Origin: Arenicola marina
Taxonomy: Eukaryota; Annelida; Polychaeta; Arenicolidae
Direction of reading: 5' to 3'
Assembly (NCBI GenBank): GCA_964019135.1
Contig: OZ025252.1
Coordinates: forward strand, 4,790,823-4,854,822
Length of the DNA stretch: 64,000 nt
The stretch's first letter is position 1. Each line of letters starts with the position of its first letter. The position numbers were made by a program, and so were the translations under genes. Positions 1 through 54,660 of the stretch are shown piece after piece. Under the pieces are notes generated by a model. That model worked only from the letters and a program-made list of their open reading frames with translations, did no database searches and was not told the origin of the DNA.

Positions 1-3000
1 TGTACGTACCTTCTCAAACCTGGCCTGGATCAGGTTGGCCTTGTCTATGAGGCGCTGTATGTGATGTACGTACCTTCTCAAACCTGGCCTGGATCAGGTT
101 GGCCTTGTCTATGAGGCGCTGTCCGTGATGTACGTACCTTCTCAAACCTGGCCTGGCTCAGGTTGGCCTTGTATATGAGGCGCTGTATGTGATGTACGTA
201 CCTTCTCAAACCTGGCCTGGATCAGGTTGGCCTTGTCTATGAGGCGCTGTCCGTGATGTACGTACCTTCTCAAACCTGGCCTGGATCAGGTTGGCCTTGT
301 CTATGAGGCGCTGTATGTGATGTACGTACCTTCTCAAACCTGGCCTGGATCAGGTTGGCCTTGTCTATGAGGCGCTGTATGTGATGTACGTACCTTCTCA
401 AACCTGGCCTGGATCAGGTTGGCCTTGTCTATGAGGCGCTGTATGTGATGTACGTACCTTCTCAAACCTGGCCTGGATCAGGTTGGCCTTGTCTATTAGG
501 CGCTGTCCGTGATGTACGTACCTTCTCAAACCTGGCCTGGATCAGGTTGGCCTTGTCTATGAGGCGCTGTCCGTGATGTACGTACCTTCTCAAACCTGGC
601 CTGGATCAGGTTGGCCTTGTCTATGAGGCGCTGTATGTGATGTACGTACCTTCTCAAACCTGGCCTGGATCAGGTTGGCCTTGTCTATGAGGCGCTGTAT
701 GTGATGTACGTACCTTCTCAAACCTGGCCTGGATCAGGTTGGCCTTGTCTATGAGGCGCTGTATGTGATGTACGTACCTTCTCAAACCTGGCCTGGATCA
801 GGTTGGCCTTGTCTATTAGGCGCTGTCCGTGATGTACGTACCTTCTCAAACCTGGCCTGGATCAGGTTGGCCTTGTCTATGAGGCGCTGTCCGTGATGTA
901 CGTACCTTCTCAAACCTGGCCTGGATCAGGTTGGCCTTGTCTATGAGGCGCTGTATGTGATGTACGTACCTTCTCAAACCTGGCCTGGATCAGGTTGGCC
1001 TTGTCTATGAGGCGCTGTATGTGATGTACGTACCTTCTCAAACCTGGCCTGGATCAGGTTGGCCTTGTCTATGAGGCGCTGTATGTGATGTACGTACCTT
1101 CTCAAACCTGGCCTGGATCAGGTTGGCCTTGTCTATGAGGCGCTGTATGTGATGTACGTACCTTCTCAAACCTGGCCTGGATCAGGTTGGCCTTGTCTAT
1201 GAGGCGCTGTCCGTGATGTACGTACCTCCTCAAACCTGGCCTGGATCAGGTTGGCCTTGTCTATGAGGCGCTGTATGTGATGTACGTACCTTCTCAAACG
1301 TGGCCTGGATCAGCTTGGCCTTGTCTATGAGGCGTTGTCCGTGATGTACGTACCTTCTCAAACCTGGCCTGGATCAGGTTGGCCTTGTATATGAGGCGCT
1401 GTATGTGATGTACGTACCTTCTCAAACCTGGCCTGGATCAGGTTGGCCTTGTCTATGAGGCGCTGTCCGTGATGTACGTACCTTCTCAAACCTGGCCTGG
1501 ATCAGGTTGGCCTTGTCTATGAGGCGCTGTATGTGATGTACGTACCTTCTCAAACCTGGCCTGGATCAGGTTGGCCTTGTCTATGAGGCGCTGTATGTGA
1601 TGTACGTACCTTCTCAAACCTGGCCTGGATCAGGTTGGCCTTGTCTATGAGGCGCTGTATGTGATGTACGTACCTTCTCAAACCTGGCCTGGATCAGGTT
1701 GGCCTTGTCTATGAGGCGCTGTCCGTGATGTACGTACCTCCTCAAACCTGGCCTGGATCAGGTTGGCCTTGTCTATGAGGCGCTGTATGTGATGTACGTA
1801 CCTTCTCAAACCTGGCCTGGATCAGGTTGGCCTGGTCTATGAGGCGCTGTATGTGATGTACGTACCTTCTCAAACCTGGCCTGGATCAGGTTGGCCTTGT
1901 CTATGAGGCGCTGTATGTGATGTACGTACCTTCTCAAACCTGGCCTGGATCAGGTTGGCCTTGTCTATGAGGCGCTGTATGTGATGTACGTACCTCCTCA
2001 AACCTGGCCTGGATCAGGTTGGCCTTGTATATGAGGCGCTGTATGTGATGTACGTACCTCCTCAAACCTGGCCTGGATCAGGTTGGCCTTGTCTATGAGG
2101 CGCTGTATGTGATGTACGTACCTTCTCAAACCTGGCCTGGATCAGGTTGGCCTTGTCTATGAGGCGCTGTCCGTGATGTACGTACCTTCTCAAACCTGGC
2201 CTGGATCAGGTTGGCCTTGTCTATGAGGCGCTGTCCGTGATGTACCTACCTTCTCAAACCTGGCCTGGATCAGGTTGGCCTTGTCTATGAGGCGCTGTAT
2301 GTGATGTACGTACCTTCTCAAACCTGGCCTGGATCAGGTTGGCCTTGTCTATGAGGCGCTGTATGTGATGTACGTACCTTCTCAAACCTGGCCTGGATCA
2401 GGTTGGCCTTGTCTATGAGGCGCTGTATGTGATGTACGTACCTTCTCAAACCTGGCCTGGATCAGGTTGGCCTTGTCTATGAGGCGCTGTATGTGATGTA
2501 CGTACCTCCTCAAACCTGGCCTGGATCAGGTTGGCCTTGTCTATGAGGCGCTGTATGTGATGTACGTACCTTCTCAAACCTGGCCTGGATCAGGTTGGCC
2601 TTGTCTATGAGGCGCTGTCCGTGATGTACGTACCTTCTCAAACCTGGCCTGGATCAGGTTGGCCTTGTCTATGAGGCGCTGTCCGTGATGTACGTACCTT
2701 CTCAAACCTGGCCTGGATCAGGTTGGCCTTGTCTATGAGGCGCTGTATGTGATGTACGTACCTTCTCAAACCTGGCCTGGATCAGGTTGGCCTTGTCTAT
2801 GAGGCGCTGTATGTGATGTACGTACCTTCTCAAACCTGGCCTGGATCAGGTTGGCCTTGTCTATGAGGCGCTGTATGTGATGTACGTACCTTCTCAAACC
2901 TGGCCTGGATCAGGTTGGCCTTGTCTATGAGGCGCTGTATGTGATGTACGTACCTCCTCAAACCTGGCCTGGATCAGGTTGGCCTTGTCTATGAGGCGCT

Positions 3001-3584
3001 GTATGTGATGTACGTACCTTCTCAAACCTGGCCTGGATCAGGTTGGCCTTGTCTATGAGGCGCTGTCCGTGATGTACGTACCTTCTCAAACCTGGCCTGG
3101 ATCAGGTTGGCCTTGTCTATGAGGCGCTGTATGTGATGTACGTACCTTCTCAAACCTGGCCTGGATCAGGTTGGCCTTGTCTATGAGGCGCTGTATGTGA
3201 TGTACGTACCTTCTCAAACCTGGCCTGGATCAGGTTGGCCTTGTCTATGAGGCGCTGTATGTGATGTACGTACCTTCTCAAACCTGGCCTGGATCAGGTT
3301 GGCCTTGTCTATGAGGCGCTGTATGTGATGTACGTACCTTCTCAAACCTGGCCTGGATCAGGTTGGCCTTGTCTATGAGGCGCTGTATGTGATGTACGTA
3401 CCTTCTCAAACCTGGCCTGGATCAGGTTGGCCTTGTCTATGAGGCGCTGTATGTGATGTACGTACCTTCTCAAACCTGGCCTGGATCAGGTTGGCCTTGT
3501 CTATGAGGCGCTGTCCGTGATGTACGTACCTTCTCAAACCTGGCCTGGATCAGGTTGGCCTTGTCTATGAGGCGCTGTATGTGA
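1..3584 (-). repeat. 64-bp minisatellite made of DRC7 exon end plus splice donor
   Basis: There are 56 head-to-tail units of exactly 64 bp (56 x 64 = 3,584), and the array runs off the left edge. Read on the minus strand, each unit is a copy of the last 48 nt of DRC7 exon 15 (QRLIDKANLIQARFEK) followed by 16 nt of intron that starts with the donor GTACGTAC. The real exon end at 3594-3641 is effectively unit 57. Two main variants alternate (gtatgtga and gtccgtga). Rare changes include an E-for-K codon just before the donor (acctcc units) and one donor GTAGGTAC near 2250. The array lies in the intron after exon 15. No indel is visible, so it is young or strongly homogenised. Confidence 0.97.
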
Positions 3585-3593
3585 TGTACGTAC

Positions 3594-3788
3594 CTTCTCA
3601 AACCTGGCCTGGATCAGGTTGGCCTTGTCTATGAGCCGCTGTTTGAGGTCGGCGCGGCAGTCGTCCATCAGCTTGAGGGCCAGCTGGCGATCCAGTCTCT
3701 CCGGATCTCCCACCTGGGCCAGGAAGGGCGCCAGGTAATCGAGCTCCATCTCCTGCCGGCGACGCTTCTCCTCAGCCTCCTGCTGCTC
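3594..3788 (-). CDS. DRC7: DRC7 exon 15, last exon in the window
   Basis: The exon has 65 codons, phase 0 (acceptor TTATTTGCAG, donor GTACGTAC at 3593). It reads LDYLAPFLAQVGDPERLD and ends QRLIDKANLIQARFEK, a C-terminal coiled coil. Its final 48 nt and donor are the source of the 56-copy array that fills the next intron. The protein should continue in at least one exon to the left of the window. Confidence 0.95.
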
Positions 3789-6700
3789 CTGCAAATAAAA
3801 GAAATCGGTGTTTCATGCCGCTTTTGTGCACACAAGGGCTAAAGTCGGCCAAGGAGCCTCAAGCGCAAGATGTCCTGCAAGTTCGCGGGGTCGAACTCCC
3901 CAATGGGACAATGGCTGCCAAGAAGCTTTGTCCACGTAAACACAAGCCGGTTAACGCCCGGGATAAGTCAGTGACAAGAACAATTTGCTTGATGTGTAAA
4001 AAACCTCTTCAGGTTCTTCAATAGATATACGACCGTTACTTACCAATTCTGCGCGATGTTTCTTGGCCTTCTCATTCCGTCCTGTATCGTAGACGGAGAT
4101 CTCCAGGTCACATGCAACCTCCTCTCGTGTTCGCTCATTGAGGATCTTCAGGACCTGTAACAACCAGGACCAGGATCTCACAACTCTGAGACACGTATAT
4201 CTATATTGAAGCAACAAATAGCTTACCCCTTATGGATAGAATTTACAACACGATCTGGCTTGCCACTAAAAGTACCTTCCATGGTCCATTAAAGGTTAGA
4301 GTTTAGATCATTTCACGGCGTTTTGGTCCTCGGTGAACCCAGCCGCGCAAATAAAGTAATTGTGAACACCAGAAACAGCCAAAGCTCATTACCATAGCAC
4401 AAGAGCTATACCAGAGAAGAATAGTACTGCTTTCGGTAATGTGTCAAATTCGACAACATCGAATTAGCCATATGCCATTACGCTGTGAAGTGGTTACAGT
4501 AATAAAATTAGTGCGATCGATGCAATAAGCTATAAAACTATGGCCACTGTTTGTCATATGATGCCAATCTACAGTAGCCCCTATGAGGCACTAGCGGTCG
4601 ATAGTCTCACCTCCTCTTCGGATTGCCGGACCTTCTCGCGACACTGATCTTCAGCTTTGAGCAGTTCACACATCATCTGGTACAACTCCACTTTCTTTCT
4701 GTCCTCTTTACTGAGACCAACCTGAAGTATGACCAGCATGTTATCGAGAAACGTAAGTACGTACCAACTCGTTAGATATGTTCAACCGAAAATTTTGAGC
4801 AGTTAGTAGATGCAGGCAATTTCCAACGTATGAAAAAGTGTTTTAAAATGTTGATATCCATAGAAATATTGCGGCGAAAGAATCGCGTCGATCTGCCATG
4901 TGCGCGAAAATCATTTCTGTATAGCTCGCGTATTACTCGCACAGTACAATTACTACAATAATCGCGAATTGACCCCTTGCCTGGAACGCGACGTGGTTTT
5001 CCGGGTGCCAGACAACAGTGGCTCCTTTCTCATCGGCGTTGGCCGGTTTCAGGAACTCCCGATTGGAGGAGGATATTTTGGTGACATCGGTGTGGTAGGT
5101 GAGTTGGATTTTTTCCTCCGCCACCAGAAACACGAGTTCTGCAATGTCGTCGTTCGCGCGTTTCTCTACATTGCGGTGGTAACGCTCCACCATTTTCTAT
5201 AAGAAACAGGAGTCAGAAGTCACAGAATTGCAATGGTCAGGAATAAACTGGTGCTTTGGGTTTATATCTGCGGTTGTAGTTCTATTCAAGTTAGTTGCTA
5301 CAATAGACCGGTACAGGCTGTCAATCATTCACTGACGTCACTGTTGCTTTTATCCAATCATGTGGTGTAAAGGGTCTTCCATGTGTGCTATGTCGGACAA
5401 ACAAGTCCCACAAACAAAGCAGCATGTCACTTTCTTGTCAGTTTCAGAGATGAGTACTTCTCACGTGTGCTATGATTGTCAATTTCATACTCACGATAAA
5501 CAAAGAGGACTCAAACGTGGGCGGGACTTAGCGTCGGGTTAGGGATCGGTCTATCCTTTACATCTCAAGACACATACATAATCCTGTCACCAAATCTGAG
5601 AAAAACCATCATGATGGGCTTCTGGCTGACGGCCTCCGATAGATAAGAGATACACAATGTACTACAAGGACCCACCACGATGGGCCTCTGGGTGACGCCC
5701 TCCGCGGGACCGAACTTCTTGGCTCGCTTGCCGAATTCCACAGACCGGAAGAACAAGTGGTCGTCGCGGCCAGTGAAGTGCTCAGCCATGTCGGTGGGCG
5801 ACTCGACCCGCTTCTGCAGCCCGTCCACGCGTGCCTGGTCGTAATATACCATCGTCCGCTCGTTCTCCGGCCCCACGTCGCCGGCTCTGTAGTGATGCTC
5901 TAAAACACACTCCGCATAGTCACCCGGCAGTCCCTCATACGTGGCAATATTGGATAAATATAAGAAGCTCAGTCACTGTAGTGGTGCTCTACCATACACC
6001 CCGCATATAGTCACCCGGCAGTCCCTCATACGTGGCAATATTGGATAAATATAAGAAGCTCAGTCACTGTAGTGGTGCTCTACCATACACCCCGCATATA
6101 GTCACCCGGCAGTCCTTCATATGCGGCAATATTGGATAAATATAAGAAGCTCAGTCACTGTAGTGGTGCTCTACCACACACCCCGCATAGTCACCCGGCA
6201 GTCCTTCATATGCGGCAATATTGGATAAATATAAAGAGCTCAGTCATTCCTATCATGTATCAATGCGTCCCTAAAAAAGGATGCAAGCACCAGTTGTTTA
6301 CTTTTGTTTCAAGATCGACCATGTGGCAGAAAACATTCTACCAAAGTGTCGACCCAATATACATCAAAGAAATTAAACAATAGACTAAAGTGAAGGGTAA
6401 AAATTTGATTCGCTGGGGTATATTTAAGGTAAACAAACATGCAACTTCAGTACATACTAATCTTTACCTTTCAAACTTTTCTGTCTCCCTGGAGCATAAT
6501 ACTCAGTGATCCAACCAGTCCTCTTGTTGTACACACGTTCCAGAAGTTTATCTGCTCGATTGGCATAAAACTCCTTCACCGTCACAAGGTCAGTCACTGA
6601 AAAGTCCGCCATTCCACGATAAATACCACACCATGGGGCAAATTATTACAATTTCACAGAAGCGATTGGACCTTACAATATATATATATTATATGTAAGT

Positions 6701-9700
6701 TATACAAACACCTACTTAAAATTGTTACCTGAATTTTGTACAACCAAACTGATATGATTCTTGTCTTGCAAACGAAAACGCTGGCACATTTCTGAAAATG
6801 AAAATTCATAGTTGCTACCGATTGAACACCACCCCGGCCCAGATTGTATGTGGACTCAACTACATTATAACATTGACACTTACAATCCTTGTCTTCATAC
6901 ATCGACAGGCGAGAAACAAGTCCATCCTTCATCAGGTAATGGGCAAACTTCTCCAGCTTGGCTCTCCTGTATAGCTTTGTCTTCTTTCCCTGGGGGCAAC
7001 GCATCTGAAAATCTACACACAAAGCGAGGATCCTCAAAGACAAAGCCAATATAAAGTCAATACAGTCACGCATAGAACTCGGAAAGATACATTGTTTTTC
7101 AAATGAATAAAGTCATTTTTGGCTTCACCCATCAGTATTATAACGGCCCACAGTTAATTATTCGTTTGAGACTGAAACTTTACACAATGATGGCCAGTGG
7201 GCATAGTACACTACCCTTGTCACAGAAGCACTTGGGATCTTGATAATCCTGCATGAACAGATGGAGTGGACCCCCGAATTCAAGCACGATGGCTGGCCTG
7301 GCAGAGCTCACTCGACAGCATAGAGTTGTAACAGCCAGCTATTTACCTGTCTGCGACAGTTCGATGCGTTCTACCCAAGATGGAGGCATGTCAAATGTCT
7401 TTTTATTGGCGTCATCCTCTTCCTCCTCATCCTGGAGATCAAACCCATTGTTAAGAGTTGTATCGATAATATACATAAATCATTACCATGGTTCCTTTAG
7501 GCAACAGTGCTCATTTAGTCTTGTAGATGTCTTAAAGCAAATGCTACAAAACTATTTTATTTAAATGATGATTCATTCACATCTAGTCAAATGCCAAGAT
7601 CAGCTTAATTCCACGCTAATCGCATACTTCGAGAACAAATAATATTGTAGTGAATATAAATAGTCCATGATCGTGTCTTGCAGCGGTGGTGGGGCGGGGC
7701 GCAAATTTGGAAAAACTTAACTAATTTATTAATTTAATTGGAGCTTACCTCCTCGTCGAAGTCTTCTCCAAGTTCATCTCCAGGAAGTTGAAGTTTAGGT
7801 TTCTCATCCGAAGCGAACATGTACTCCCAAATTGTGCAGTCACCAAGGTCATAGCGCAATTTCTAAACAAAGAAAGTTAAAATTAATCTTCTACCCCTGC
7901 GCGGGTAGCATGTTCACCCATTACACACACACAACTAAATTATGATTTTCATTAGTTTAAGAGGGAACTGAATTGTCGGGATTAATAAGGCAACTTTTGT
8001 GCATCTGATTTAATATAAGAGAGATCACGGGTTGGGGTTAATAAGACAATTGTTGTGAGTTCGAAGGCTAAATCCGACCAAGAAACATCCCAGGACAATG
8101 ATACAGAGTCGGTAAAACATGCTACAAACGCAGGTACTAGATAACCAAAGCATGACTTGTTGAATTGTAGCCTGAACCAACTGAACTTCCGATATTCGAT
8201 AACAGACATATATAAAAGCTATGCTGTTGCGGCAGGATTTTAATCTGCGTCGATAAGTATAGACATCTGATACACCTGTGGGTTAATTACCCACCTTGAC
8301 TCCTTCGGAGCAATCCTGCATGTTAACCCAGTAGTTGGAGTGGCTCCAGACGCTCTCGATGCCCAGGTACTGATCGCTGGTGATGGACTGGGCCAGCCCA
8401 GTCAGGGGTTCTATGAAGAAACTCTCCGGCACTTCCCTCTTGCCTTCGAGGACCAGAACCCAGGAGTGGACGCGGAGACCGTGCAAAGGATCTGGAGGAG
8501 GTTGCTCCAGCTCCTGCAGTGGAACCCCATGATGAAACGGTGAATGGCCAGGCTTATTTCTCAAGGTTGTCCCTTGAAAGGTTTTGCAGAACACATAGCT
8601 TTATAGCATTACCTATTTAATAACTAAACTTATGCATCAGATGTATGGAAATTGTTGACAAAATGGTGACACAACAAGGTAATACAATTACAGATCATGG
8701 TGAACGATATGTGCACAGTAGAAAGTGACTTTCTCGACCCATGTCCTTTTCCTATGGTAATCACTCCCTGTTCAACTTTGTTTATAAAAACGTTGTATAA
8801 TTGATATATCAGCAGGGAGAAATGTGAATATTCATCAAAGCGGTAAAAGCTCAAAGGTTAACCTCTTGTTTCTGTTCCTCTTCTAGTCTCAATTTCTCAG
8901 CAGCGTCTTCTGCTTCTTTCTCTTTTCTCTTCACCATTTTTAGCTCAAATTTGCTCCTCAAGTCCTTGGGCGGTTTGACAGTGTACTTTTCCATTTTCTT
9001 TTTCTCTGCTTCTTCTTTAGCCTTTAAACAGAGATTGTGGCTATTTTATTGATCGACAAATGCACACCAAGAATATATAACTTCACTGTTACTGGTTACT
9101 TTTGAATTGGCTACAGACATGTAATATTAAGAGAATACAAAAACTACAGTATATACCAGGATAGTTGTAAGTCCTACTTACTAAACACTCTTTGGAGAGT
9201 CATATCAAATTACATTTGCCTAACTTGTTAGAAGTTATCAAGTATGTGAGGTACAAAAATTGTGATGAGTATGAATTAGGATACCTTCACTTTCTTCTTC
9301 ATCATAGGACAAATTTCACGTGTTTCATCCATATAGCAAGTCTCTCTGCTGGCATAGCCACTAACAACATATGCATCATAGCCTACTCCTATAAGTAAGG
9401 AGGCAAGCAGTGTGCTGTATTCAAAGCAGTTGCCTTTCTGTCGCTTCAGGGTGGTAGTTGGGGACAGCAGTCTTTCAGGCTACAAACAGGAAGCATTCAA
9501 ACTAACTGCTTGTCAGTAGAGTTATATCTGTTTGACACAGATGATGACCACTTTATATGATATACACCAACCATTTTGACAGAAATAAATCAAGAATTAT
9601 AATAGGATATTTGTTAAGTAACTATGGTATGGACATGCATGCAATTTCATTTGTTATTACTTTGAACCCAAATGTTTTGCTAGTGCAATGACAGCCATAT

Positions 9701-11359
9701 ACCATATGACCATTTACATTTTATACAGGTAAAGTTAGATTTCATAATATGCAAGCACATCAGGGCATAGGGTTAAAGTTTGAAACTTACAAGTTCATGA
9801 GCTGGCTCAAGAGGAACATAGTTTAGGTAATCAGCAACAAATTCTGCTGCTCCATCCCAGTTATAAAGTTCTTTGTAGCAAACTTGTGTTGGTCTGATTG
9901 TAGTACATACAAATTTCTGAAACAATTTAATCATATCTTTATTGAAAAGCATCTTAGGATGTATTAGGACATGGGTTAAGCACAAAGAGACAACTTAGTT
10001 TAAAGAGAAATGCAGTAGAATATCTTTTTAAAATAGACTATTGTAAACTCAAACAAAATTAGTTGAAAGTTTAAGTCCAGTTATCGATGAATCAATACTA
10101 AAGTACATATGCTGTTTTTAATAAGTCCAAAGTTAATTTATTTAACTGAAGAAAACAAATATTAGTTACCTTGACATCACATTCATTTACAGGATTAAGG
10201 AAGAGAGGCTTTCTGTCTCTATAAAGATGGACATACTGCCGCCTGAAGTTTTCTGCAATTGCTAATGCGACGTTTTCCTTAGAAGTGTTTTCCCTATAGC
10301 TCTGTGGAAAATCAGCTGCATCAAATACCTCTGGTGGCTCTCTAGAAAAAAGTAATAAGAAAGAACAGCACTTATATTAAATGTGTCAAATGTTGATAGA
10401 CAGTGGTCCCTGCATTATACAAGTTCTGTTCTGCCAGCTATATAATGGAGGCATAATTGACTGATGTCCCCAGATAAGCCATTTAGGTCCTAAGTATCAT
10501 AACATGCAAAAATCTAACTATAATATACATGCTTAGCCAAAAAAACATAAACATCACTGGCTCCCTTTTTCCACTTATTCATGACAGCATCCGTATCTCA
10601 AGGATTTTCTGAATTTGTATTTAAACACACTTAAACGATGCTGCGATGCTGATACATAACCCTGCATACAGGTCTCCAGCTCTGTGGCATGGCTAGCCCA
10701 GAACCCTAGGCAGCCATAGCCATGGGTTCATGGCCAGTTAATCATTAATGGCTATAATATAGATAGACCTACATCATATATAACAGGTAATTAACCATTT
10801 ATGTACTCATTCTTTTAGCCTACTTTTAGAGATTTAGTCAATAATATAATACAGAAAGATGAAATGATCAATAAGAAATGAAAGTAAAATAAAATACATT
10901 ATCTCATGCAGCCTGTTCAAAATTTTAACAAAAATATTGGCCAAAAGATGAAAAGTCAAAACTGCAGTGTGCATGCACACTGTTTACATGTTGCAACAGC
11001 AATTGTTAATTTGACTTTATCTAGGGAAGTTTAGTAAATCTGAGCATCTGCAATTCTTGTCTGTAAACTGACACCATATTTGTTGGTAGATTCACTGTGA
11101 TTTTATCCAACTCTTCTTTCAGCGAATGGGCATCCTCGGTGAGATCCATGACCTCTTGAGAATTATTTTTGTTCTCGGCATCACTGCCATCACTGCCGTT
11201 TTCAACCCCGTTTTCATCTTCTTCATCAACCGGAGTTATGTTGCGCGATTCGGCAATGTCACTTCCAACACTTTTGGTTCCATCTCCTGCCTTGTCTCCC
11301 GACATATCAGGTGTACCGGGAGAACTCCCAGCAATATCGACATCAGTCTCTTTACCCAT
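3594..11359 (-). CDS. DRC7: Dynein regulatory complex subunit 7 (CCDC135), 3'-partial in window
   Basis: DRC7 is a subunit of the nexin-dynein regulatory complex, which links outer doublets in motile cilia and flagella. I recognise it from family memory by blocks such as PLHGLRVHSWVLVL, GIESVWSHSNYWVNMQD, RCPQGKK, ARVDGLQKR, ISVYDTGRNEKAKKH and LDYLAPFLAQ. Fourteen exons (2-15) join in frame: 10341-10170, 9916-9791, 9479-9285, 9021-8863, 8513-8295, 7862-7749, 7431-7347, 7012-6884, 6596-6468, 5899-5676, 5196-4981, 4721-4611, 4154-4044 and 3788-3594. They give 728 codons, plus about 112 in exon 1. The usual length is about 870 residues, so the last coiled-coil part lies left of the window. Domain order is acidic N-terminus, transglutaminase-like fold (exons 2-4), charged coiled coil (5), conserved core (6-12) and C-terminal coiled coil (13-15). 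Introns hold nothing recognisable apart from the two exon-derived repeats. Confidence 0.95.
4044..4154 (-). CDS. DRC7: DRC7 exon 14
   Basis: The exon has 37 codons, phase 0 (acceptor TTGTTACAG, donor GTAAGT). It reads VLKILNERTREEVACDLE, then ISVYDTGRNEKAKKHRAEL, the latter almost diagnostic of DRC7. Confidence 0.94.
4611..4721 (-). CDS. DRC7: DRC7 exon 13
   Basis: The exon has 37 codons, phase 0 (acceptor ATACTTCAG, donor GTGAGA). It reads LSKEDRKKVELYQMMCELLK then EDQCREKVRQSEEE, a coiled coil in the position of the LxYQYExMMxLKxEE helix of vertebrate DRC7. It is too interrupted by introns to stand out as a long open frame. Confidence 0.9.
4981..5196 (-). CDS. DRC7: DRC7 exon 12 with GC splice donor
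   Basis: The exon has 72 codons, phase 0. The acceptor is TTCTTATAG. It contains DDIAELVFLVAEEKIQLTYH and ends ENHVAFQ. The sequence after it is GCAAGG, so the intron is GC-AG. Using this donor keeps frame with exon 13 and removes residues (ARGQ...) that have no counterpart in the family. Confidence 0.92.
5676..5899 (-). CDS. DRC7: DRC7 exon 11
   Basis: The acceptor is TGTGTTTTAG and the donor GTGGGT; the exon is phase 1 in and phase 0 out. It includes YYDQARVDGLQKRVESP and FFRSVEFGKRAKKFG, then QRPIV, all family signatures. It is markedly GC-rich, unlike exons 2-5. Its 5' end and acceptor are part of the four-copy repeat at 5887-6247. Confidence 0.95.
5887..6247 (-). repeat. Four-copy 89-91 bp repeat carrying the DRC7 exon 11 acceptor
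   Basis: Units start at 5887, 5976, 6067 and 6158. On the minus strand every copy keeps an AG followed by AGCAYCACTACAG, which is the first 13 nt of exon 11. Only the copy at 5887 continues into the exon. The other three lie deeper in the intron, so the splice acceptor and exon start are present four times. Confidence 0.92.
6468..6596 (-). CDS. DRC7: DRC7 exon 10
   Basis: The acceptor is ACTTTTCAG and the donor GTAAAG, phase 1 in and out. It reads TDLVTVKEFYANRADKLLE and WITEYYAPGRQKSLK, matching the family's KEWYxNRxDxLE and YFxPGxPxxL patterns. Confidence 0.92.
6884..7012 (-). CDS. DRC7: DRC7 exon 9
   Basis: The acceptor TGTGTGTAG at 7013-7015 is chosen over a nearer ttttcag because only it keeps frame, giving D-FQMRCPQGKK. 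It continues LYRRAKLEKFAHYL and GLVSRLSMYEDKD, a conserved DRC7 segment. The donor is GTAAGT, phase 1. Confidence 0.93.
7347..7431 (-). CDS. DRC7: DRC7 exon 8
   Basis: The exon has 28 codons plus one base (acceptor ATCTCCAG, donor GTAAAT). It reads DEEEEDDANKKTFDMPPSWV then ERIELSQT; the FDMPPSWVERIE block is conserved in DRC7. It ends in phase 1, which fixes the start of the next exon. Confidence 0.92.
7749..7862 (-). CDS. DRC7: DRC7 exon 7
   Basis: The exon has 38 codons, phase 0 (acceptor TTTGTTTAG, donor GTAAGC). It reads KLRYDLGDCTIWEYMF, matching the family's DLGD...WEYM motif, and then becomes acidic (GEDFDEE). Confidence 0.93.
8295..8513 (-). CDS. DRC7: DRC7 exon 6, most conserved core
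   Basis: The exon has 73 codons, phase 0 (acceptor TTCCACTGCAG, donor GTGGGT). It contains DPLHGLRVHSWVLVLEG, KREVPESFFIEPLTG and GIESVWSHSNYWVNMQDC, the blocks that identify DRC7 most clearly. Confidence 0.96.
8863..9021 (-). CDS. DRC7: DRC7 exon 5, charged coiled coil
   Basis: The exon has 53 codons, phase 0 (acceptor TTTAAAG, donor GTTAAC). It includes YTVKPPKDLRSKFE, a family signature, followed by a long Glu/Lys/Arg/Ala run (KRKEKEAEDAAEKLRLEEEQ) with coiled-coil character. Confidence 0.92.
9285..9479 (-). CDS. DRC7: DRC7 exon 4, transglutaminase-like core
   Basis: The exon has 65 codons, phase 0 at both ends (acceptor TTTGTAG, donor GTATCC). It carries KGNCFEYSTLLASLL and IGVGYDAYVVSGYA, the Cys-containing helix and following strand of the transglutaminase-like fold. 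In DRC7 this fold is generally regarded as structural rather than enzymatic. It ends in a Lys-rich MMKKKVK leading into the coiled coil. Confidence 0.94.
9791..9916 (-). CDS. DRC7: DRC7 exon 3
   Basis: The acceptor is TTGTTTCAG and the donor GTAAGT, and both ends are phase 0. The 42 codons start KFVCTTIRPT and end VPLEPAHEL. The YNWDGAAEFVADYLNYVPL segment matches the DRC7 family block ahead of the Cys-containing transglutaminase-like motif. Confidence 0.93.
10170..10341 (-). CDS. DRC7: DRC7 exon 2
   Basis: The acceptor is TTTTTCTAG and the donor GGTAACT. After one base completing a split codon, 57 codons read EPPEVFDAADFPQSYRENT...NPVNECDVK. This includes the conserved RQYVHLYRDRKPLFLNP stretch that opens the transglutaminase-like domain of DRC7. 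The incoming phase of 2 is what leaves the junction with exon 1 unresolved. Confidence 0.93.
11021..11359 (-). CDS. DRC7: DRC7 exon 1, N-terminal acidic region (end uncertain)
   Basis: The likely start ATG is at 11359 (MGKETDVDIAG), although the frame stays open upstream to 11500. The segment is Ser/Asp/Glu-rich and ends in VSVYRQELQMLRFTKLP, which resembles the residues just before the conserved block in other DRC7 proteins. In this frame a TAG at 11021-11023 follows directly, and I see no good GT donor of the phase (2) that exon 2 needs. A non-canonical donor, a small missed exon or an assembly error is possible. The coordinates are those of the open frame, not of a proven exon. Confidence 0.6.
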   Translation of the reverse strand: MGKETDVDIAGSSPGTPDMSGDKAGDGTKSVGSDIAESRNITPVDEEDENGVENGSDGSDAENKNNSQEVMDLTEDAHSLKEELDKITVNLPTNMVSVYRQELQMLRFTKLP

Positions 11360-15513: not shown

Positions 15514-15520
15514 ACATATC

Positions 15521-18869: not shown

Positions 18870-19133
18870 CGTTGGTTGTACAAGTATATTCAGGACGCTC
18901 TAACCGCCTTTGATCATATCGCGTCAACGGGAGAATGAAGGGAGAGTGGAGCCATGTCCCTGGGGGTAATCCCCTACTTTTTGCGAATAACAACATGGGA
19001 TCTTTATCCTGCGAAACTCACAGATATGGCCACAGCGACGCGCGAACCACCGATCCACGTGCCATTTGGCCCTCAGGTGACCAGAGCTCTCAAGGCAAGC
19101 GTTCTAACCCACTGAGCTATCGGGCGGGCCCCT
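18870..19133 (-). mobile_element. tRNA-derived SINE, copy 1 (full length)
   Basis: Read on the minus strand it starts with GCCCGATAGCTCAGTGGGTT, a tRNA-like box A, followed by a box B-like GGTTCG. The body includes GATAAAGATCCCATG, AGTAGGGG, ACATGGCTCCACTCTCCC and TTGACGCGATATGA, and the tail is ATATACTTGTACAACCAAC. Related copies occur at 27.5, 29.7, 33.6, 41.3 and 45.9 kb, which defines the family. Confidence 0.88.
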
Positions 19134-29741: not shown

Positions 29742-29932
29742 AATGAATGGTTCGAGCCCCGCTGTGGTCATGTCTGTGTGGTCGCAGGATAAAGATCCCA
29801 TGTCCTTCTTCGCAAAGAGTAGGGGGTTACCCCCCGGGGACATGGCTCCACTCTCCCGTCCTTCTCCCATTGACGCGATATGACCAAAAGTGGTTAAAAG
29901 GTCCTGAATATATAACCAACCAACCGGTTAAA
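29742..29932 (+). mobile_element. tRNA-derived SINE, copy 3 (5'-truncated)
   Basis: It begins just before box B (GGTTCGAGCCCCGCTGTGG) and lacks the box A head. The body is well preserved, with AAAGATCCCATGTCCTTCTT, AGTAGGGGGTTAC and TTGACGCGATATGACC. It ends in AACCAACCAACC, a typical simple tail. Confidence 0.87.
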
Positions 29933-33587: not shown

Positions 33588-33790
33588 ATGGTTGGTTTTA
33601 TATTCAGGACGCTTTAACCCCTTTTAGTCATATCGCGTCAACGAAAGAAGGAAGGGAGAGCGGAGCCCGGGGATAACCCCCTACTCATTGCGGACATGGG
33701 ATCTTTATCCTGCGACCCCACAGGCATGGCCACAGCGGGGCGCGAACCACCGATCCACGTGCCGTTAGGCTGAGCTATCGGGCCAGCCCC
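33588..33790 (-). mobile_element. tRNA-derived SINE, copy 4 (internal deletions)
   Basis: On the minus strand it has a head GCCCGATAGCTCAGCC, box B-like GGTTCGCGCCCCGCTGTGG, the body with AAAGATCCCATGTCCGCAAT, TTGACGCGATATGAC, and the tail ATATAAAACCAACC. It lacks part of the tRNA-like region between the boxes and part of the body. Confidence 0.85.
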
Positions 33791-40200: not shown

Positions 40201-40820
40201 CATGCGCCGTGGTAAGCGATAGTCATGAGCCGTGATAAGCGATAATCATGAGCCGTGGTAAGCGATAGTCATGAGCCGTGATAAGCGATAATCATGAGCC
40301 GTGGTAAGCGATAGTCATGAGCCGTGTAAGCGATAGTCATGCGCCCTGGTAAGCGATAGCCATGAGCCGTGGTAAGCGATAGTCATGAGCCCTTGTAAGC
40401 GATAGTCATGCGCCGTGGTAAGCGATAGTCATGAGCCGTCGTAAGCGATAGTCATGAGCCGTGGTAAGCGGTAGCCATGAGCCCTTGTAAGCGATAGTCA
40501 TGAGCCGTGTAAGCGATAGTCATGAGCCCTTGTAAGCGATAGTCATGCGCCGTGGTAAGCGATAGTCATGAGCCGTGGTAAGCGATAGTCATGAGCCGTG
40601 TAAGCGATAGTCATGCGCCGTGGTAAGCGATAGTCATGAGCCGTGGTAAGCGATAGTCATGAGTCGTGGTAAGCGATAGTCATGAGCCGTGGTAAGCGAT
40701 AGTCATGAGCCGTGGTAAGCGATAGTCATGAGCCCTTGTAAGCGATAGTCATGCGCCGTGGTAAGCGATAGTCATGAGCCGTGGTAAGCGATAGTCATGA
40801 GCCGTGGTAAAGCGATAGTC
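34203..40820. repeat. 23-bp satellite, about 290 units
   Basis: The basic unit contains ATGAGCCGTGGTAAGCGATA and is 23 bp. A shorter variant with CCAAGTCATGCGCC recurs every few units, and blocks of about 200 bp (for example near 37199, 37433 and 37855) are repeated, so there is higher-order structure. Every unit has a donor-like GTG|GTAAGC on the plus strand. Stops occur throughout and no long frame survives. Confidence 0.96.
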
Positions 40821-41320: not shown

Positions 41321-41521
41321 GGCCGCCCCGATAGCTCAGTGGGTTGGAGCGCTCGCTCCAGACACCTGAGAGCCAAACGGCACGTGGGTCGATGGTTCGA
41401 GCCCCGCTGTGGCCATGTCTGTGTTGTATTAAGTAGACATAGTTCCGCTCTTCCCTTTATTCTCCCATTGACGCAATATGACCAGAATTGGTTAAAGCGT
41501 CCTGAATACACAACCAACACA
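41321..41521 (+). mobile_element. tRNA-derived SINE, copy 5
   Basis: The head is excellent: GCCCCGATAGCTCAGTGGGT, then GGAGCGCTCGC, with box B GGTTCGAGCCCCGC. The middle of the body (the AAAGATCC...AGTAGGGG part) is deleted. It resumes at TTCTCCCATTGACGCAATAT and ends ACAACCAACACAA. Confidence 0.88.
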
Positions 41522-41647
41522 ATAAGCGTCTAACATTAAACTCCACTCTCTGTATGAATTAGTCATTCCTCTTAGATTTGGTTGGATTGAGTGTAATCGC
41601 GACTAACGTTGATATCAATAAATGACCTGACCTGTGTAAACCTCCCT

Positions 41648-46196: not shown

Positions 46197-46695
46197 TTGA
46201 ACAAATTCCATTTTCGTTGCTTGCGAAACTTTTTAGGCATATCTTGGCAAGATAAGGTAACAAATGCTGAACTGTTAGCCATGGCCAGCCTACCAAGCAT
46301 TCTTGCTCTTATAAAACAAAGGCGTCTTCGTACGCTTGGGAACGTGCATCGTATGCAAAAGGAACGCATTGCAAAGGATGTGCTCTACGGTGAGCTTTCC
46401 GAATGCAGAAGACCAATTGGACGGCCAAAGCTCAGGACTAAAGATGTTTGCAAGCGTGACATGAAGGCTTTCGGCATCGATTCAAATTCTTGGGAGGATC
46501 TCGTGCGAGAGGGAATGGCGCACCACGACTGGCCCTGGTTTGAGAAACTGGACTTGAAACGCCAATCTAGGCGTTCAATGAGTATAAAGCTAGACCTAAC
46601 GACAGGTCATCGATGCGACGACTGCGGTAAGCTCTGTCGATCACAGATAGGCTTATTTAGTCATTAGCGCAAATGCCGCGAAACAAATCTTCAAC
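46197..46695 (+). mobile_element. C-terminal remnant of a non-LTR retrotransposon (LINE) ORF2
   Basis: The open stretch reads FHFRCLRNFLGISWQDKVTN, then LIKQRRLRTLGNVHRM, LYGEL...RPIGRPKLR and KDVCKRDMKAFGI, typical of the region after the reverse transcriptase in a common invertebrate LINE type. A C-terminal Cys-rich motif (CDDCGKLCRSQIGLFSH) is followed by TAG and then RKC in the same frame, so a stop now interrupts the terminal zinc-finger-like motif. The reverse transcriptase and endonuclease parts are absent, a usual 5' truncation. I am not sure of the clade. Confidence 0.85.
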
Positions 46696-47905: not shown

Positions 47906-48012
47906 CCACCCAATTTCGTTTCTAAGAGAGTTTTTTTTATAGAATTATAAACCATTAAATGCATTACACTGTCAGGTGGTATGTATACATTGGTCTTTGT
48001 CGTCGCTTCCAG

Positions 48013-48278
48013 CTGGGGAAGACGTTGCTGGGCCGCGGCCGAGCCATGAGCCAGTGCTCGGGTCTGTCGAGCCAATGCGACGTGCAGGTCATCATCACTG
48101 AGACGGAGAGCGAAGACGTGGACAAGACGGCCTACCAGCGGCCCGCCTACGTGGCCGTGGCCCTCATCCTCGCCATGACAACCGTGTCCGTCTTCTTTCC
48201 CATGGTCCTCACCGCCTGCGGCCTGACCGAGAACATCTACAGTCGCCCGCCGCCCGCGCCCTGCACGGACCCCTGTCG
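48013..48278 (+). CDS. PLD3/4-like exon a: cytoplasmic tail, membrane anchor, APCTDPC motif
   Basis: It follows a strong acceptor TTTGTCGTCGCTTCCAG. The frame is open from CTG at 48013, and the first ATG in it is at 48046 (MSQCSGLSSQCDVQV), so translation may start here or in an earlier exon. The hydrophobic run AYVAVALILAMTTVSVFF is the membrane anchor. It ends RPPPAPCTDPC plus two bases of an Arg codon, with donor GTGAGT. The last 35 nt plus the donor seed the array downstream. Confidence 0.88.
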
Positions 48279-51200
48279 GTGAGTGTGTGACCCCCCCACT
48301 GGCACGCCCGCCGCCCGCGCCCTGCACGGACCCCTGTCGGTGAGTGTGTGACCCCCCAACTGGCCGCCCGCCGCCCGCCGCCCGCCGCCCGCGCCCTGCA
48401 CGGACCCCTGTCGGTGAGTGTGTGACCCCCCCACTGGCCGCCCGCCGCCCGCCGCCCGCGCCCTGCACGGACCCCTGTCGGTGAGTGTGTGACCCCCCCA
48501 CTGGCACGCCCGCCGCCCGCCGCCCGCGCCCTGCACGGACCCCTGTCGGTGAGTGTGTGACCCCCCCCCCCACTGGCCGCCCGCCGCCCGCGCCCTGCAC
48601 GGACCCCTGTCGGTGAGTGTGCGACCCCCCCCACTGGCCGCCCGCCGCCCGCGCCCTGCACGGACCCCTGTCGGTGAGTGTGTGACCCCCCCACTGGCCG
48701 CCCGCCGCCCGCGCCCTGCACGGACCCCTGTCGGTGAGTGTGTGACCCCCCCACTGGCCGGCCGCCGCCCGCGCCCTGCACGGACCCCTGTCGGTGAGTG
48801 TGTGACCCCCCCACTGGCACGCCCGCCGCCCGCCGCCCGCGCCCTGCACGGACCCCTGTCGGTGAGTGTGTGACCCCCCCACTGGCCGCCCGCCGCCCGC
48901 GCCCTGCACGGACCCCTGTCGGTGACTGTGTGACCCCCCCACTGGCCGCCCGCCGCCCGCGCCCTGCACGGACCCCTGTCGGTGAGTGTGTGACCCCCCC
49001 ACTGGCCGGCCGCCGCCCGCCGCCCGCGCCCTGCACGGACCCCTGTCGGTGAGTGTGTGACCCCCCCCACTGGCCGGCCGCCGCCCGCCGCCCGCGCCCT
49101 GCACGGACCCCTGTCGGTGAGTGTGTGACCCCCCCACTGGCACGCCCGCCGCCCGCCGCCCGCCGCCCGCCGCCCGCCGCCCGCGCCCTGCACGGACCCC
49201 TGTCGGCGAGTGTGTGACCCCCCCCACTGGCACGCCCGCCGCCCGCCGCCCGCGCCCTGCACGGACCCCTGTCGGTGAGTGTGTGACCCCCCTACTGGCC
49301 GCCCGCCGCCCGCCGCCCGCGCCCTGCACGGACCCCTGTCGGTGAGTGTGTGACCCCCCCACTGGCCGCCCGCCGCCCGCGCCCTGCACGGACCCCTGTC
49401 GGTGAGTGTGTGACCCCCCCCACTGGCCGGCCGCCGCCCGCCGCCCCGCGCCCTGCACGGACCCCTGTCGGTGAGTGTGTGACCCCCCCACTGGCACGCC
49501 CGCCGCCCGCCGCCCGCCGCCCGCGCCCTGCACGGACCCCTGTCGGTGAGTGTGTGACCCCCCCACTGGCACGCCCGCCGCCCGCCGCCCGCCGCCCGCG
49601 CCCTGCACGGACCCCTGTCGGTGAGTGTGTGACCCCCCCACTGGCCGCCCGCCGCCCGCCGCCCGCGCCCTGCAAGGACCCCTGTCGGCGAGTGTGTGAC
49701 CCCCCCACTGGCCGCCCGCCGCCCGCGCCCTGCACAGACCCCTGTCGGTGAGTGTGTGACCCCCCCCCCACTGGCCGCCCGCACCCTGCACGGACCCCTG
49801 TCGGTGAGTGTGTGACCCCCCCCCCCACTAGCCGCCCGCCGCCCGCGCCCTGCACGGACCCCTGTCGGTGAGTGTGTGACCCCCCCCACTTACTGCCCGC
49901 CCCCTGCCCGACCACCACCCCCCGCCCCCGCCCCCCGCGCCGTGCACGGACCCCTGTCGGTGAGTGTGTGGGAGGGTGACCCCCACTCCCCTTACTGTTC
50001 CACCCCCGCGCCCTGCACGGTGTGTGTGACCCCCCCCCCCCCCACTAGCCGCCCGCCGCCCGCGCCCTGCACGGACCCCTGTCGGTGAGTGTGTGACCCC
50101 CCCCACTTACTGCCCGCCCCCTGCCCGACCACCACCCCCCGCCCCCGCCCCCCGCGCCGTGCACGGACCCCTGTCGGTGAGTGTGTGGGAGGGTGAGCCC
50201 CACTCCCCTTACTGTTCCACCCCCGCGCCCTGCACGGTGTGTGTGACCCATCCCCCCCCCCACTTCCTACACACCGCGCCCTGCACGGAGCCCTGTCGGT
50301 GAGTGTGTGGGAGAGAGTGTGACCCGCCTCGCTGCCCCACCCCCCCGCTCCCTGCACGTACCATATACAGTGACTGTCCTGTACCATACATAGTGACTGT
50401 CTTGTACCATACACGGTGACTGTCTTGTACCATACACAGTGACTGTCCTGTACCATACACAGTGACTGTCCTGTACCATACACAGTGACTGTCCTGTACC
50501 ATACACAGTGACTGTCCTGTACCATACACAGTGACTGTCCTGTACCATACACAGTGACTGTCCTGTACCATACACAGTGACTGTCCTGTACCATACATAG
50601 TGACTGTCCTGTACCATACATAGTGACTGCCCTGTACCACACACAGTGACTGCCCTGTACCATACACAGTGACTGTCCTGTACCATACACAGTAACTGTC
50701 CTGTACCATACACAGTAACTGTCCTGTACCATACACAGTGACTGTCCTGTACCATACACAGTGACTGTCCTGTTCCATACACAGTGACTGTCCTCTACCA
50801 TCCATAGTGACTGTCCTGTACCATACACACTGACTGTCCTGTACCATACATAGTGACTGTCCTGTACAATACGTAGTGACTGTCCTGTTCCATACACACT
50901 GACTGCCCTGTACCATACATAGTGACTGCCCTGTACAATACGTAGTGACTGTCCTGTTCCATACACAGTGACTGTCCTCTACCATCCATAGTGACTGTCC
51001 TGTACCATACACACTGACTGCCCTGTACCATGCACACTGACTGCCCTGTACCATACACAGTGACTGTCCTGTACCATACACAGTAACTGTCCTGTACCAT
51101 ACACAGTGACTGTCCTGTACCATACACAGTGAGTGTCCTGTACCATACATAGTGACTGCCTTGCACCATACACAGTAACTGTCCTGTACCATACACAGTG

Positions 51201-54200
51201 ACTGTCCTGTACCATACACAGTGAGTGTCCTGTACCATACATAGTGACTGTCCTGTACCATACACACTGACTGTCCTGTACCATACGTAGTGACTGCCCT
51301 GTACTATACACACTGACTGTCCTGTACCATTCACAGTGACTGCCCTGTACCATAATTAGCGACTATCCTGTACCATAAATGGTGACGGTGCTCTACCATT
51401 CACAGTGACTATACTGCTCCGTAAGCTCCTCTGTGATATCCAGTGGAGCCCTAACGATGCCCTCTAGTGTTAAGCTCGGAGATTGATTCCCCTCACAGCG
51501 CCACCCAGCGGCTGGCTGGCTAATGCTCATAACTCACAAAATCACGGATGATCTGTCGACCACGTGGTAGATGGACAGTCACCGGACTGCATTTTTTTGG
51601 ACCAGTTTTTTTTCAGCTGCCGGATTCCGTCAGACATAACATTTACGATACCTCTTAGCCCTGTGGCTCTGAACAAAAACCTGGAGCGGGGCACTGCGTG
51701 ATGGCAGCAATGCGTTTGAGAAATAAATCAAGGCAGTCCGTGGACAGAAAACGTACTCGACGAGAGGGGCCGGTCCATTACTGAACAGTTGCCGCGCCAA
51801 TCTCACCGGTCACCGCCACTAACCAGACGGCTTCCCGAGCCGCTCTTCGGGGCTACCCCGTCACCATAGAGACGGTCACGTGATGCGACAAAAATGAAAT
51901 TCCTTTTTTGGGCAACTGATCTTGAGATATAGGTGGGGTCAACTTATTTTTATTATGAGGCGTAATTTTTGGTTATCTTTTAAAATAAATCCCAGTTGTT
52001 CAGTTCGGAGAAAAGAAATATGGGTGTGGGTAGAAGCAAACAGTGCATACATTTTGTTTGTGTGCAAAATATAGCATTTCATTTTCGTTTGGCGACGAGA
52101 TAGTCTTTATAGATTTATACGCGTAAATAGTTGCGTACACTTTACTTGTGGGGTATATAAAAAAATGATCAACTAATTTATTTGTTGGTGTTTTGGGGCG
52201 CGTTTGTGCACATGGCGCAATAAAATGAAGGTCCAGCGTCACACATCTTGTTAATGTCGACAGCCTGGAGCCGTTTCTATCAATCCCTTTTCCCGCCAGC
52301 CTAAGCCGCAACAGGTTCTCTGGTTGCTGCGGGCCTCCAAGCCCCGCATTACAATGGCGTCAGACTTCTCGTCAGTGCAGCCGCCATTTTTTTTTTTTTT
52401 TTTTGCTGGGGGCGGCTGGAAATTCGAGTCCCTTTGAGTCCGTTTTTAGGTCACTTGTTAATCAGTGGCTGCATAAAGTTGAGGCCCTTTAGGGTGGCTT
52501 TAGTCCCGACTATGGGGAACCGTAAATAGCGAGGAACCCAGCCACCTGGCCCAACTACAGCCACCCTCGCAAACCAAGTCACCGTATCCCCCTATCCCCA
52601 GCCACCATACATCACCCCCGCCCCCACCCCCACCACCCCCACCCCCACCCGCCATACATCACCCTCACCCCCACGACCCCCATCCCCACCCATCATACAT
52701 CCCCCTCCCCCCCCACCCGCACCCCCACCCCCATACCCCCACCCACCATACATCACTCCCAACCCATTCCTTTGTCTCTGTCTCTCCCTGTTATTTCTGC
52801 ACATCTACGCTTCTTACTCACTTACATTGCCCCCCCCCCCCACCCCTTGCCAGCGCCGGTCCGCTTCGTTAATTGTTCTCCCCAGCTACGGTGACCCATG
52901 CATACAAGACGACTGAGTAATATACTATTTTACCTCCATCTCTCTCTTTTCTCTCTCGATCTGTCCATTTATGTCCGCATATAAAGATTGGTACAGTCTC
53001 CTATGTAAGCATTAATGCATGGTTTCGGGTGAGTGATGGGAGTTCCTTTACGGCTTGTTACTCGCCGAGGAAACATATAACAGTCGACAGAGCGCTCGTC
53101 ACAACCGGACGAACCGCCACAGGTCACTCACCAGAGGTCACTGCGGATGTGTAGTAACGCTGGGTCGTCTGTTTTTACTGGGGGTTATTACTGGGGTGGT
53201 GGTGCGGCTGGATGGTTTAAGTATTATACCTGGGAGGTTTGAGGATTATTTCGCGGGCGTGGTGTGTCAAAGGTTTAAGTATTACTCCGCAGGCTGGTGC
53301 GGCTGGAAGGTTTAAGTATTACTCCGCGGGCGTGGTGCCGCTGGAAGGTTTAAGTATTACTCCGCTGGCGCGGTGCGGCTGAAAGATTTGAGTATTACCC
53401 GCGGGCACGGTGTGGCTGGAAGGTTTGAGTATTACTCCGCGGGCGTGGTGTGGCTGGAAGGTTTGAGTATATCTCCGCGGGGGTGGTGCGGCTGGAAGGT
53501 TTGAGTATTATTCCGCGGGCGTGGTGCCGCTGGAAGGTTTGAGTATTACCCGCGGGCGTGGTGTGGCTGGAAGGTTTGAGTATTACTCCGCGGGCGGGGT
53601 GCGGCTGGAAGGTTTAAGTATTACTCCGCGGGCGTGGTGTGTCTGGGAGGTCTGAGTATTACTTTTTATCCCTCGGATTAATAGTGTGTTGTCGTTACGT
53701 ATGAGCTTAAGTCCCCAGCGGCTCGTACCTTTCATTGCGGCTTTATAATTCGTGTCGTCGGGCTCGGCCCTCGTGAGACCGCTCCATCTCTATACCGTGG
53801 GGACATAGTTCACCGCTGCTGGCTGTTCATGATGTATGAGGTCGGGGCTTTTACGCCGTGCGCCTGTGTAGAATCCGGCTGAGTTGTCTCGATACGTCGA
53901 ATTGCTAAAGTTACTCTGTAGAGGGATCAACGGGAAATAGATAATACAGTTTTCCCCATCGCTTTTTTTTTCTCTTCCCTTTCTCCCACAAAACTGATTT
54001 ACGGATCAAATTACAGATGTGACACTTCATCTCGTGGGAACAATTACTGGACAAGTCACGTGTTTAGTCGCGGCGGCAATGGTGTCGAGGATAAAACCGC
54101 AAAACGGTTAGATTGCCGCAAAACGTCGAGTATACTGACATGTCGCCCCGCACCTATGCAGGGCATCTACGGACCGAGGCTGTTTGCTGGGGGGAGGGGG

Positions 54201-54660
54201 GAGTGGGGGTAGAGGGAACTTTGAGTGACGTCAATCATATCGGTTTTGTAAGACTGATTGGGTTACTCACTGAGTAAAATATCGAAACCCCATTGGAAAG
54301 TGTTCTTTATTTGAACTGAAATACAAATGCAAATATCCGTATTTTGTATTTTAGGATCGCCTTAGTGGAGAGCACGTTAATCATTGCGTTAAATATCAAA
54401 ACCCACAACAAAGATTGAAAAGTGTTCTGTAATTGAATTAATATACAATTGGAAACAACCGTGGTATTTTGTATTTTAGGATCACCTTGGTGGAGAGCAT
54501 TCCGGAGAACTTGACCTTTGCCCCCGGGTCGCCCGTCCACCTGTCCACCTACGAGGGATGGCTCAACCTGCTGGAGGCAGCCAACAAGACCGTGGACATT
54601 GCCTCTTTCTACTGGACTCTCCGGGGATCCGACTTCTACAAGGACCCGTCAGACTGGCAG
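48013..54660 (+). CDS. PLD3/PLD4-like phospholipase D family protein, 5' part (two exons seen)
   Basis: PLD3 and PLD4 are type II membrane proteins of the endolysosome, and in vertebrates act as 5' exonucleases on single-stranded nucleic acid. Exon a (48013-48278) and exon b (54480-54660) join in phase 2 to give APCTDPCR-ITLVESIPENLTF, then DIASFYWTL, as in the family (APCxDPC...LVESIPE...LDIASFYWTL). From the ATG at 48046 there is a short cytoplasmic tail, one membrane segment (about residues 34-59) and the start of the luminal domain with two N-glycosylation sequons (NLT, NKT). The two HKD catalytic motifs should lie further right and are not in the window as far as I can see. I cannot tell PLD3 from PLD4. 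Confidence 0.88.
48244..50330 (+). repeat. Exon-derived minisatellite carrying PLD exon 3' end and splice donor, about 29 copies
   Basis: Each unit repeats the exon end (CGCCCGCGCCCTGCACGG, then ACCCCTGTCG, encoding APCTDPC) followed by GTGAGTGTGTGACCCCCC and ACTGGC. Unit length varies from about 58 to over 90 bp through expansion of CGCCCGC. By eye about 29 copies keep CCCTGTCGG, and nearly all keep GGTGAGT (exceptions near 48921, 49205 and 49687). A 217-bp higher-order block is doubled at about 49870-50086 and 50087-50303. Only the first copy joins the real exon. Read-through hits TGA at once. Confidence 0.95.
50356..51415. repeat. 23-bp tandem array, about 45 units
   Basis: The unit is TGTACCATACACAGTGACTG plus TCC, 23 bp, with frequent variants (ACATAG, ACACTG, GACTGC). 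Three units make 69 bp, so long open frames on the minus strand cycle through three reading phases. This is expected from the repeat and not evidence of a gene. It lies in the PLD intron directly after the exon-derived array. Confidence 0.95.
51416..53195. other. PLD intron, no further features apart from CCACCCCC-rich DNA
   Basis: 52560-52760 is a degenerate CCACCCCCACC / CCATACATCACCC repeat. A poly-T tract lies at 52388-52405. Nothing else recognised. Confidence 0.55.
53196..53662. repeat. 37-38 bp tandem array, about 12 units
   Basis: The unit has GCTGGAAGGTTTGAGTATTA then CTCCGCGGGCGTGGTG. Unit starts at 53302, 53340, 53378 and 53415 show the 37-38 bp spacing. It lies within the PLD intron. 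Confidence 0.92.
54266..54505 (+). repeat. ~125-bp tandem duplication of the PLD exon b acceptor and exon start
   Basis: Two copies each contain TAAATATC, AGTGTTCT and TTTTGTATTTTAG, followed by GATCRCCTTRGTGGAGAGCA. The AG at 54353-54354 and that at 54478-54479 are 125 bp apart. The upstream copy includes 20 nt of exon sequence and then runs into intron sequence. Only the second copy continues as the coding exon. Confidence 0.92.
54480..54660 (+). CDS. PLD3/4-like exon b: start of luminal domain
   Basis: The acceptor is TTTTGTATTTTAG and the donor GTAGGT. It supplies the last base of the split Arg codon and 60 more codons: ITLVESIPENLTFAPG, YEGWLNLLEAANKTVDIASF and YWTLRGSDF, ending SDWQ. 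This is the strongly conserved start of the first phospholipase D half-domain. Confidence 0.93.

Follow-up and report, generated by a model that had tools for sequence, protein, structure and literature searches.

The name "mirages" was given in the lancelet Adh3 gene to tandem copies of exon-intron boundaries, which have also been found in the lancelet globin genes BflGb6 and BflGb9 (PMC3087553); lancelet PGBD5 and troponin C are mentioned as further cases (PMC3902484). The cited passages report that the lengths of lancelet mirages differ between haplotypes and that reverse transcription PCR (RT-PCR) suggests regular splicing (PMC3087553). Here we describe repeats of this kind at splice junctions of DRC7 and a PLD3-like gene in a 64-kb stretch of Arenicola marina DNA (hereafter, the window), which is part of a 49.9-Mb contig. 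The whole assembly, the only one used, comprises 867 Mb in 762 contigs. With NOL10 as a third gene, 70 junctions were examined in total, and about 1 in 8 (9 of 70) carries a splice-site tandem duplication, with up to 107 copies. This is a known kind of structure in a new, distant host, and it is frequent in the genes examined.

The repeats resemble lancelet mirages in being minisatellite-type copies of the boundary at both donors and acceptors; lancelet units are given as about 10-160 bp, with splicing reportedly undisturbed (PMC3087553, PMC3902484). They differ in their spiralian host, in reaching 107 copies compared with at most 7 in the lancelet cases described in those passages, and in the presence of several arrays per gene. 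Whereas lancelet mirages are known with RT-PCR and allele variation, the arrays described here are known from genome sequence alone. The internal tandem repeats of human segmental duplications, as far as the cited text describes them, are likewise minisatellite expansions at gene parts that include exon-intron boundaries; they belong, however, to recent paralogues, lie half in coding sequence and are said to form novel introns, whereas the present repeats occupy junctions of conserved genes (PMC2812944). An earthworm metallothionein gene is described as having minisatellites in an intron and duplications of exon 4 that do not appear in its transcript (PMC12783039), and an abalone gene as having an intron minisatellite (PMC6905558). 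Full-text searches of open-licence papers listed no report outside lancelets in which we recognised this structure, which is weak evidence of absence.

The initial annotation of the window had listed four repeats, with 57, 4, about 29 and 2 copies, whose units start inside an exon and end inside the adjoining intron. All four do span an exon edge, and the copy numbers are borne out within the window. The junction repeats of DRC7 and PLD3 and the exons that they adjoin are as follows, in window coordinates, with copy numbers marked TRF taken from Tandem Repeats Finder.

3594..11359, minus strand: DRC7 exons 15 to 1, with exons 16 and 17 beyond the left end of the window
3594..3788, minus strand: DRC7 exon 15 (gene model and homologues), ending ..QRLIDKANLIQARFEK, donor gtacgtac
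1..3642, minus strand: DRC7 exon 15 donor array; the window holds 57 of its 64-bp units, and the array extends left to -3200
5676..5899, minus strand: DRC7 exon 11 (gene model)
5887..6246, minus strand: DRC7 exon 11 acceptor array, in 4 copies measuring 89-91 bp, with 13 nt of exon and the last copy joined to the exon
5606..5704, minus strand: DRC7 exon 11 donor, where the end of the exon recurs as a diverged second copy (borderline; absent from the initial list)
48013..48278, plus strand: PLD3 exon 1 (of 9 modelled), ending ..CTDPC(R), donor gtgagtgtg
48244..50309, plus strand: PLD3 exon 1 donor array, 29 units (60-69 bp in 20 cases), the first unit 35 nt exonic
54480..54660, plus strand: PLD3 exon 2 (gene model)
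54262..54499, plus strand: PLD3 exon 2 acceptor, a pair of copies at 54262-54374 and 54376-54499 that are 77% alike, with 20 nt of exon
80597-81067, plus strand, outside the window: PLD3 exon 4 donor array, 23 bp, 19.5 copies (TRF)
81375-82952, plus strand, outside the window: PLD3 exon 5 acceptor array, 54 bp, 28.8 copies (TRF)

The DRC7 gene runs on the minus strand, where its 15 exons inside the window join into a single stop-free frame of 824 aa. Pfam MORN and C-terminal DRC7 domains match the product, and the homologues are named DRC7 proteins from many animals. The splice sites in the window are all GT-AG except at the donor of exon 12 (4981-5196, minus strand), a GC donor (CAG then gcaagg) and the only non-GT donor among the 15 exons. 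With its left neighbour included, the exon 15 donor array holds 106.9 (~107) copies between -3200 and 3642, and it makes up most of intron 15 (about 6.8 of 7.4 kb). Each 64-bp unit consists of 48 nt of exon and 16 nt of intron, and the units are nearly identical to one another. A local-alignment test over the 33 window junctions, in which shuffles were the only control, returned the four known cases and the exon 11 donor of DRC7. At this last junction 5606-5638 and 5672-5704 are 85% alike at a spacing of 66, with an intron reach of just 4 nt; the score was 35 against a maximum of 21 in its own 100 shuffles, while shuffles over all 33 junctions scored up to 36, a value reached at the GC-rich PLD3 exon 1 donor, and those within DRC7 up to 31.

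The second gene, initially labelled only as PLD, is PLD3-like by comparison with homologues and lies on the plus strand. When the right-hand neighbouring DNA is included, its 9 coding exons span 48013 to 85982 (window coordinates) and form a closed 502-aa frame, and the single intron between exons 4 and 5 carries an array at both ends. The exon 5 acceptor array, which counts 23 copies under a stricter pattern, shows that the early impression of large expansions at donors and small ones at acceptors does not amount to a rule. Upstream of PLD3, a 23-bp array with 291 copies occupies 34204-40820 (6.6 kb), and its unit contains GGTAAGC. Further to the right, at 8817-10000 of stretch L004 (window coordinates 92817-94000), a 49-bp array of at least 24 copies runs past the end of the stretch and carries GTAAGT on the minus strand; this is possibly a further donor array, of another gene.

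While DRC7 and PLD3 came with the original finding, NOL10 was obtained from a stretch at a preset position. The sample consisted of 20 stretches of 10 kb, two preset positions on each of ten contigs (L006-L025), in which a codon-usage scan trained on DRC7 and PLD3 picked out 49 candidate coding segments. For Pfam searches the minus strand of L009 was chosen as having the most segments among 40 of the 49 candidates; the L009 arrays were already known by then. Pfam searches of ten candidate segments from other sampled stretches returned a C2H2 zinc finger (L016) and one match below the cut-off (L012), and a Pfam scan next to three candidate donor arrays among the sampled loci returned no match. 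Ten joined exons of NOL10 on L009 give one stop-free frame. Of its 21 junctions tested, 4 have spanning copies. Three are strict cases, namely two acceptors with old copies and one donor with a 43-bp array (TRF, 9.2 copies); the borderline one is a 54-bp donor array at L009 1-2250 with at least 41 copies, which runs past the stretch end and overlaps the exon by 3 nt. At the exon 2 acceptor, an upstream 24-nt copy (1699-1822 of reversed L009) was excluded from the count, as the copies flank the junction and none lies across it. A separate 24-bp tandem duplication at L009 2273-2323 lies entirely within a NOL10 exon and is in frame (NNEEKKRE-like).

How such junctions are spliced may be approached through the reading frame. 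If used, donors 2 to 5 of the DRC7 exon 15 array each bring a stop, as do donors 2 to 4 of the PLD3 exon 1 array, all three upstream acceptors of DRC7 exon 11 and the single upstream acceptor of PLD3 exon 2. The gene models have a single usable copy per junction. In the cases tested only the exon-attached copy gives a working frame, so the intron-side copies should be cut out, and splicing would be expected at the exon-attached copy. Such genes offer a natural splicing experiment, in which the spliceosome must pick among many near-identical sites, both donors and acceptors.

The surroundings of these junctions are rich in tandem repeats. Self-comparison of the window gives 17 tandem loci (18 with 48244-51423 split), of which 13 of the 17 lie at no known junction, and the short arrays that TRF adds do not span any known junction of the window. 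In the sampled stretches 81 tandem loci (period at least 10, score at least 60) cover 41% of the 200 kb. Tandem loci occupy 29-55% of intron bases in DRC7, PLD3 and NOL10, while only 9-11 of the 70 junctions lie in them, as would be expected if arrays grow into introns. In L008 and L010 an array extends across the entire 10 kb.

We consider it quite probable that the repeats are junction minisatellites of the mirage kind, tolerated since splicing removes the surplus copies, in a minisatellite-rich genome. An array would be born by tandem duplication of a 23-125-bp segment that happens to contain an exon edge, and would then, as ordinary minisatellites do, contract again or expand further into intron sequence. 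The exon-attached copy would retain the frame and the splice site, and the intron-side copies, as decoy splice sites, would leave with the intron. We propose that junction arrays are common here because minisatellite density is very high and a straddling duplication can be removed by splicing. We further infer a high birth rate of minisatellites, births that are not aimed at junctions, and arrays that are neutral. Since divergence differs between arrays, with the acceptor copies of PLD3 exon 2 and NOL10 well diverged, unlike the DRC7 exon 15 units, births look recurrent and do not resemble a single burst.

The genome lets junction duplication be counted against an explicit null. Every array was collapsed to one unit beforehand, and under the null a unit-length segment was placed uniformly over all positions that lie entirely within an intron or that cross one junction and no other, leaving 5 nt or more to either side of it. 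By this strict rule 9 of the 70 junctions have a straddling tandem locus (4 donors and 5 acceptors), and 2 more have 3-4 nt; these borderline cases, outside the strict count, are the donor of DRC7 exon 11, where the repeat takes in 4 nt of intron, and the 54-bp donor array of NOL10, with 3 nt of exon. With a 3-nt rule that takes in both, 11 of 23 loci straddle a junction against 2.97 expected (P 3.5e-6), or 7 of 19 when the four loci of the initial annotation are left out (P 0.0014). The strict count without those four is 5 of 19 against 2.09 expected (P 0.035), and to the right of the stretch covered by the initial annotation 2 of the 8 PLD3 loci straddle a junction (P 0.003-0.005). These figures come from three genes, with approximate unit lengths for the old cases and with junctions of one gene that are perhaps not independent.

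Several results weigh against tolerance of randomly placed duplications as a sufficient account. Under the strict rule, the three genes have 23 tandem loci, of which 9 lie across a junction against about 2.8 expected from uniform birth (2.81 expected, P 2.1e-4), so tolerance may not be the whole story. Taken gene by gene, the strict count reaches significance in PLD3 only (4 of 13 loci, 0.27 expected, P 9e-5), with DRC7 (2 of 3, 0.89 expected) and NOL10 (3 of 7, 1.65 expected) both at P 0.21. Ten other array units of the window show no enrichment of the donor-like motif GTRAG, which 2 of them contain (0.95 expected), AGGTRAG occurs in just 1 of 81 sampled array units, and the candidate last exons of another gene in L007, inspected by eye, lack border duplication. 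The choice of splice site, too, is read here from frame arguments. The initial annotation had held chance overlap of its four repeats with exon edges to be unlikely on the ground that exons are a small part of the window. The direction of that claim agrees with the strict count; its premise fares less well, as arrays cover so much of the sampled DNA that chance contact is commoner than was assumed.

The rival that survives best is a junction-targeted process, in which exon-intron edges are preferred starting points of tandem duplication owing to breaks, nicks, R-loops or replication stalling. Tandem locus density per available base is 5.9 times higher at junctions than in introns (strict, three genes; P 2e-4), and arrays with at least 4 copies, 6 of them at junctions and 9 intronic, give a similar ratio of 6.2 (P 0.002). 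One PLD3 intron is, moreover, struck at both ends. On the other side, there are three genes, two of which came through the original finding, and PLD3 gives most of the signal; old cases with two to four copies are more visible next to an exon where coding constraint holds one copy. Unit lengths vary (23-125 bp), no common motif was noticed among them, and many arrays are intronic. We regard a targeted process as unlikely. The wider proposal, that births are aimed at exon-intron edges and occur there about six times as often per available base as in introns, that a substantial fraction of junctions thereby carries decoys and that this came about independently in lancelets and a spiralian, seems to us doubtful; if true, targeted birth would link a mutational process to the structure of genes. 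The initial annotation had offered initiation at exon borders and tolerance there as alternatives. Tolerance is supported by the stops that the tested decoys bring and by recurrence in a third gene, whereas targeted initiation is only suggested by the roughly sixfold density.

That the arrays are functional, perhaps acting as splicing enhancers, as decoys or as alternative micro-exons, is improbable. The DRC7 exon 15 unit does have an in-frame stretch of 45 nt between AG and GT, and GT is kept in 56 of 56 full units; however, these units are too similar for conservation to say much, and several changes in their exon part alter amino acids. GT is kept in 27 of 29 and 18 of 19 units of two PLD3 donor arrays, and elsewhere in PLD3 AG is kept in 23 of 23 copies, although search patterns that contain the site bias the PLD3 counts upward. 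Extended donors run into stops, and the 19-nt stretch separating DRC7 units is too short for an intron.

An assembly artefact that inflated repeat copies is very improbable as the source of the pattern. The precise copy numbers of the long arrays are uncertain, but the point changes that distinguish the copies come in mixed order, several of the cases are both short and diverged, the contigs are up to 77 Mb long, and nine junctions in three genes show the same arrangement.

Hardly credible, finally, is intron creation by tandem genomic duplication, reportedly of the Rogers, Venkatesh or Hellsten type, in which the introns themselves would derive from the repeats: the duplications contain splice-site cores and the array occupies most of DRC7 intron 15, but introns contain unique sequence too, and the non-exon part of the DRC7 exon 15 unit does not encode the next residues ETQELQKK, which argues that the intron was already present. 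The link to the birth of introns drawn in the initial annotation, which made no mention of mirages, thus finds no support, the DRC7 exon 15 units containing non-coding intron sequence. Intron gain from an AGGT-bearing exon segment, as the cited passages describe it, shares with the present arrays a tandem duplication that multiplies splice-site cores; there, unlike here, the duplicated segment is exonic, whereas these units straddle an existing junction and contain intron sequence (PMC3443670). The arrays do provide material for asking whether such structures ever turn into new introns.

The placement of the host was examined with both genes of the window. In the DRC7 tree, made from 27 of 46 sequences that were themselves taken from the 120 matches listed, with long branches and near-duplicates dropped, the window sequence falls in a clade of 17 entries, lophotrochozoan and unnamed (support 100/99). 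Grouping it with Branchiostoma, or with chordates, was rejected by the approximately unbiased test (p-AU about 9e-5), and the mirage host is thus not a cephalochordate. The PLD3 tree, with 24 of the 120 matches listed and many weak forks, groups the window sequence with a Capitella and a Joint Genome Institute (JGI) sequence (96/88). By sequence comparison the host would be a spiralian, probably an annelid, and the lancelet phenomenon is extended to a distant phylum.

Other elements are present elsewhere in the window. Scans for transfer RNA (tRNA; ARAGORN) and against Rfam returned no match in it, and Pfam scans of window stretches returned one RVT_1 domain as the sole match, the domains of the DRC7 gene model aside. 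Dispersed repeats at 18885-19093, 27500-27675, 29748-29923, 33589-33771, 41363-41522 and 63632-63751 are 79-97% alike and lie on both strands; we take them to resemble a tRNA-headed short interspersed element, although ARAGORN found no tRNA in them. A reverse-transcriptase frame with stops (PF00078) lies on the minus strand at about 59100-59840 and is flanked by direct copies of ~650 bp that are 94% alike (57261-57911 and 60159-60799). A 156-aa frame at 46197-46664 on the plus strand has no Pfam match and appears to us to resemble the tail of a non-LTR (non-long-terminal-repeat) retroelement protein.

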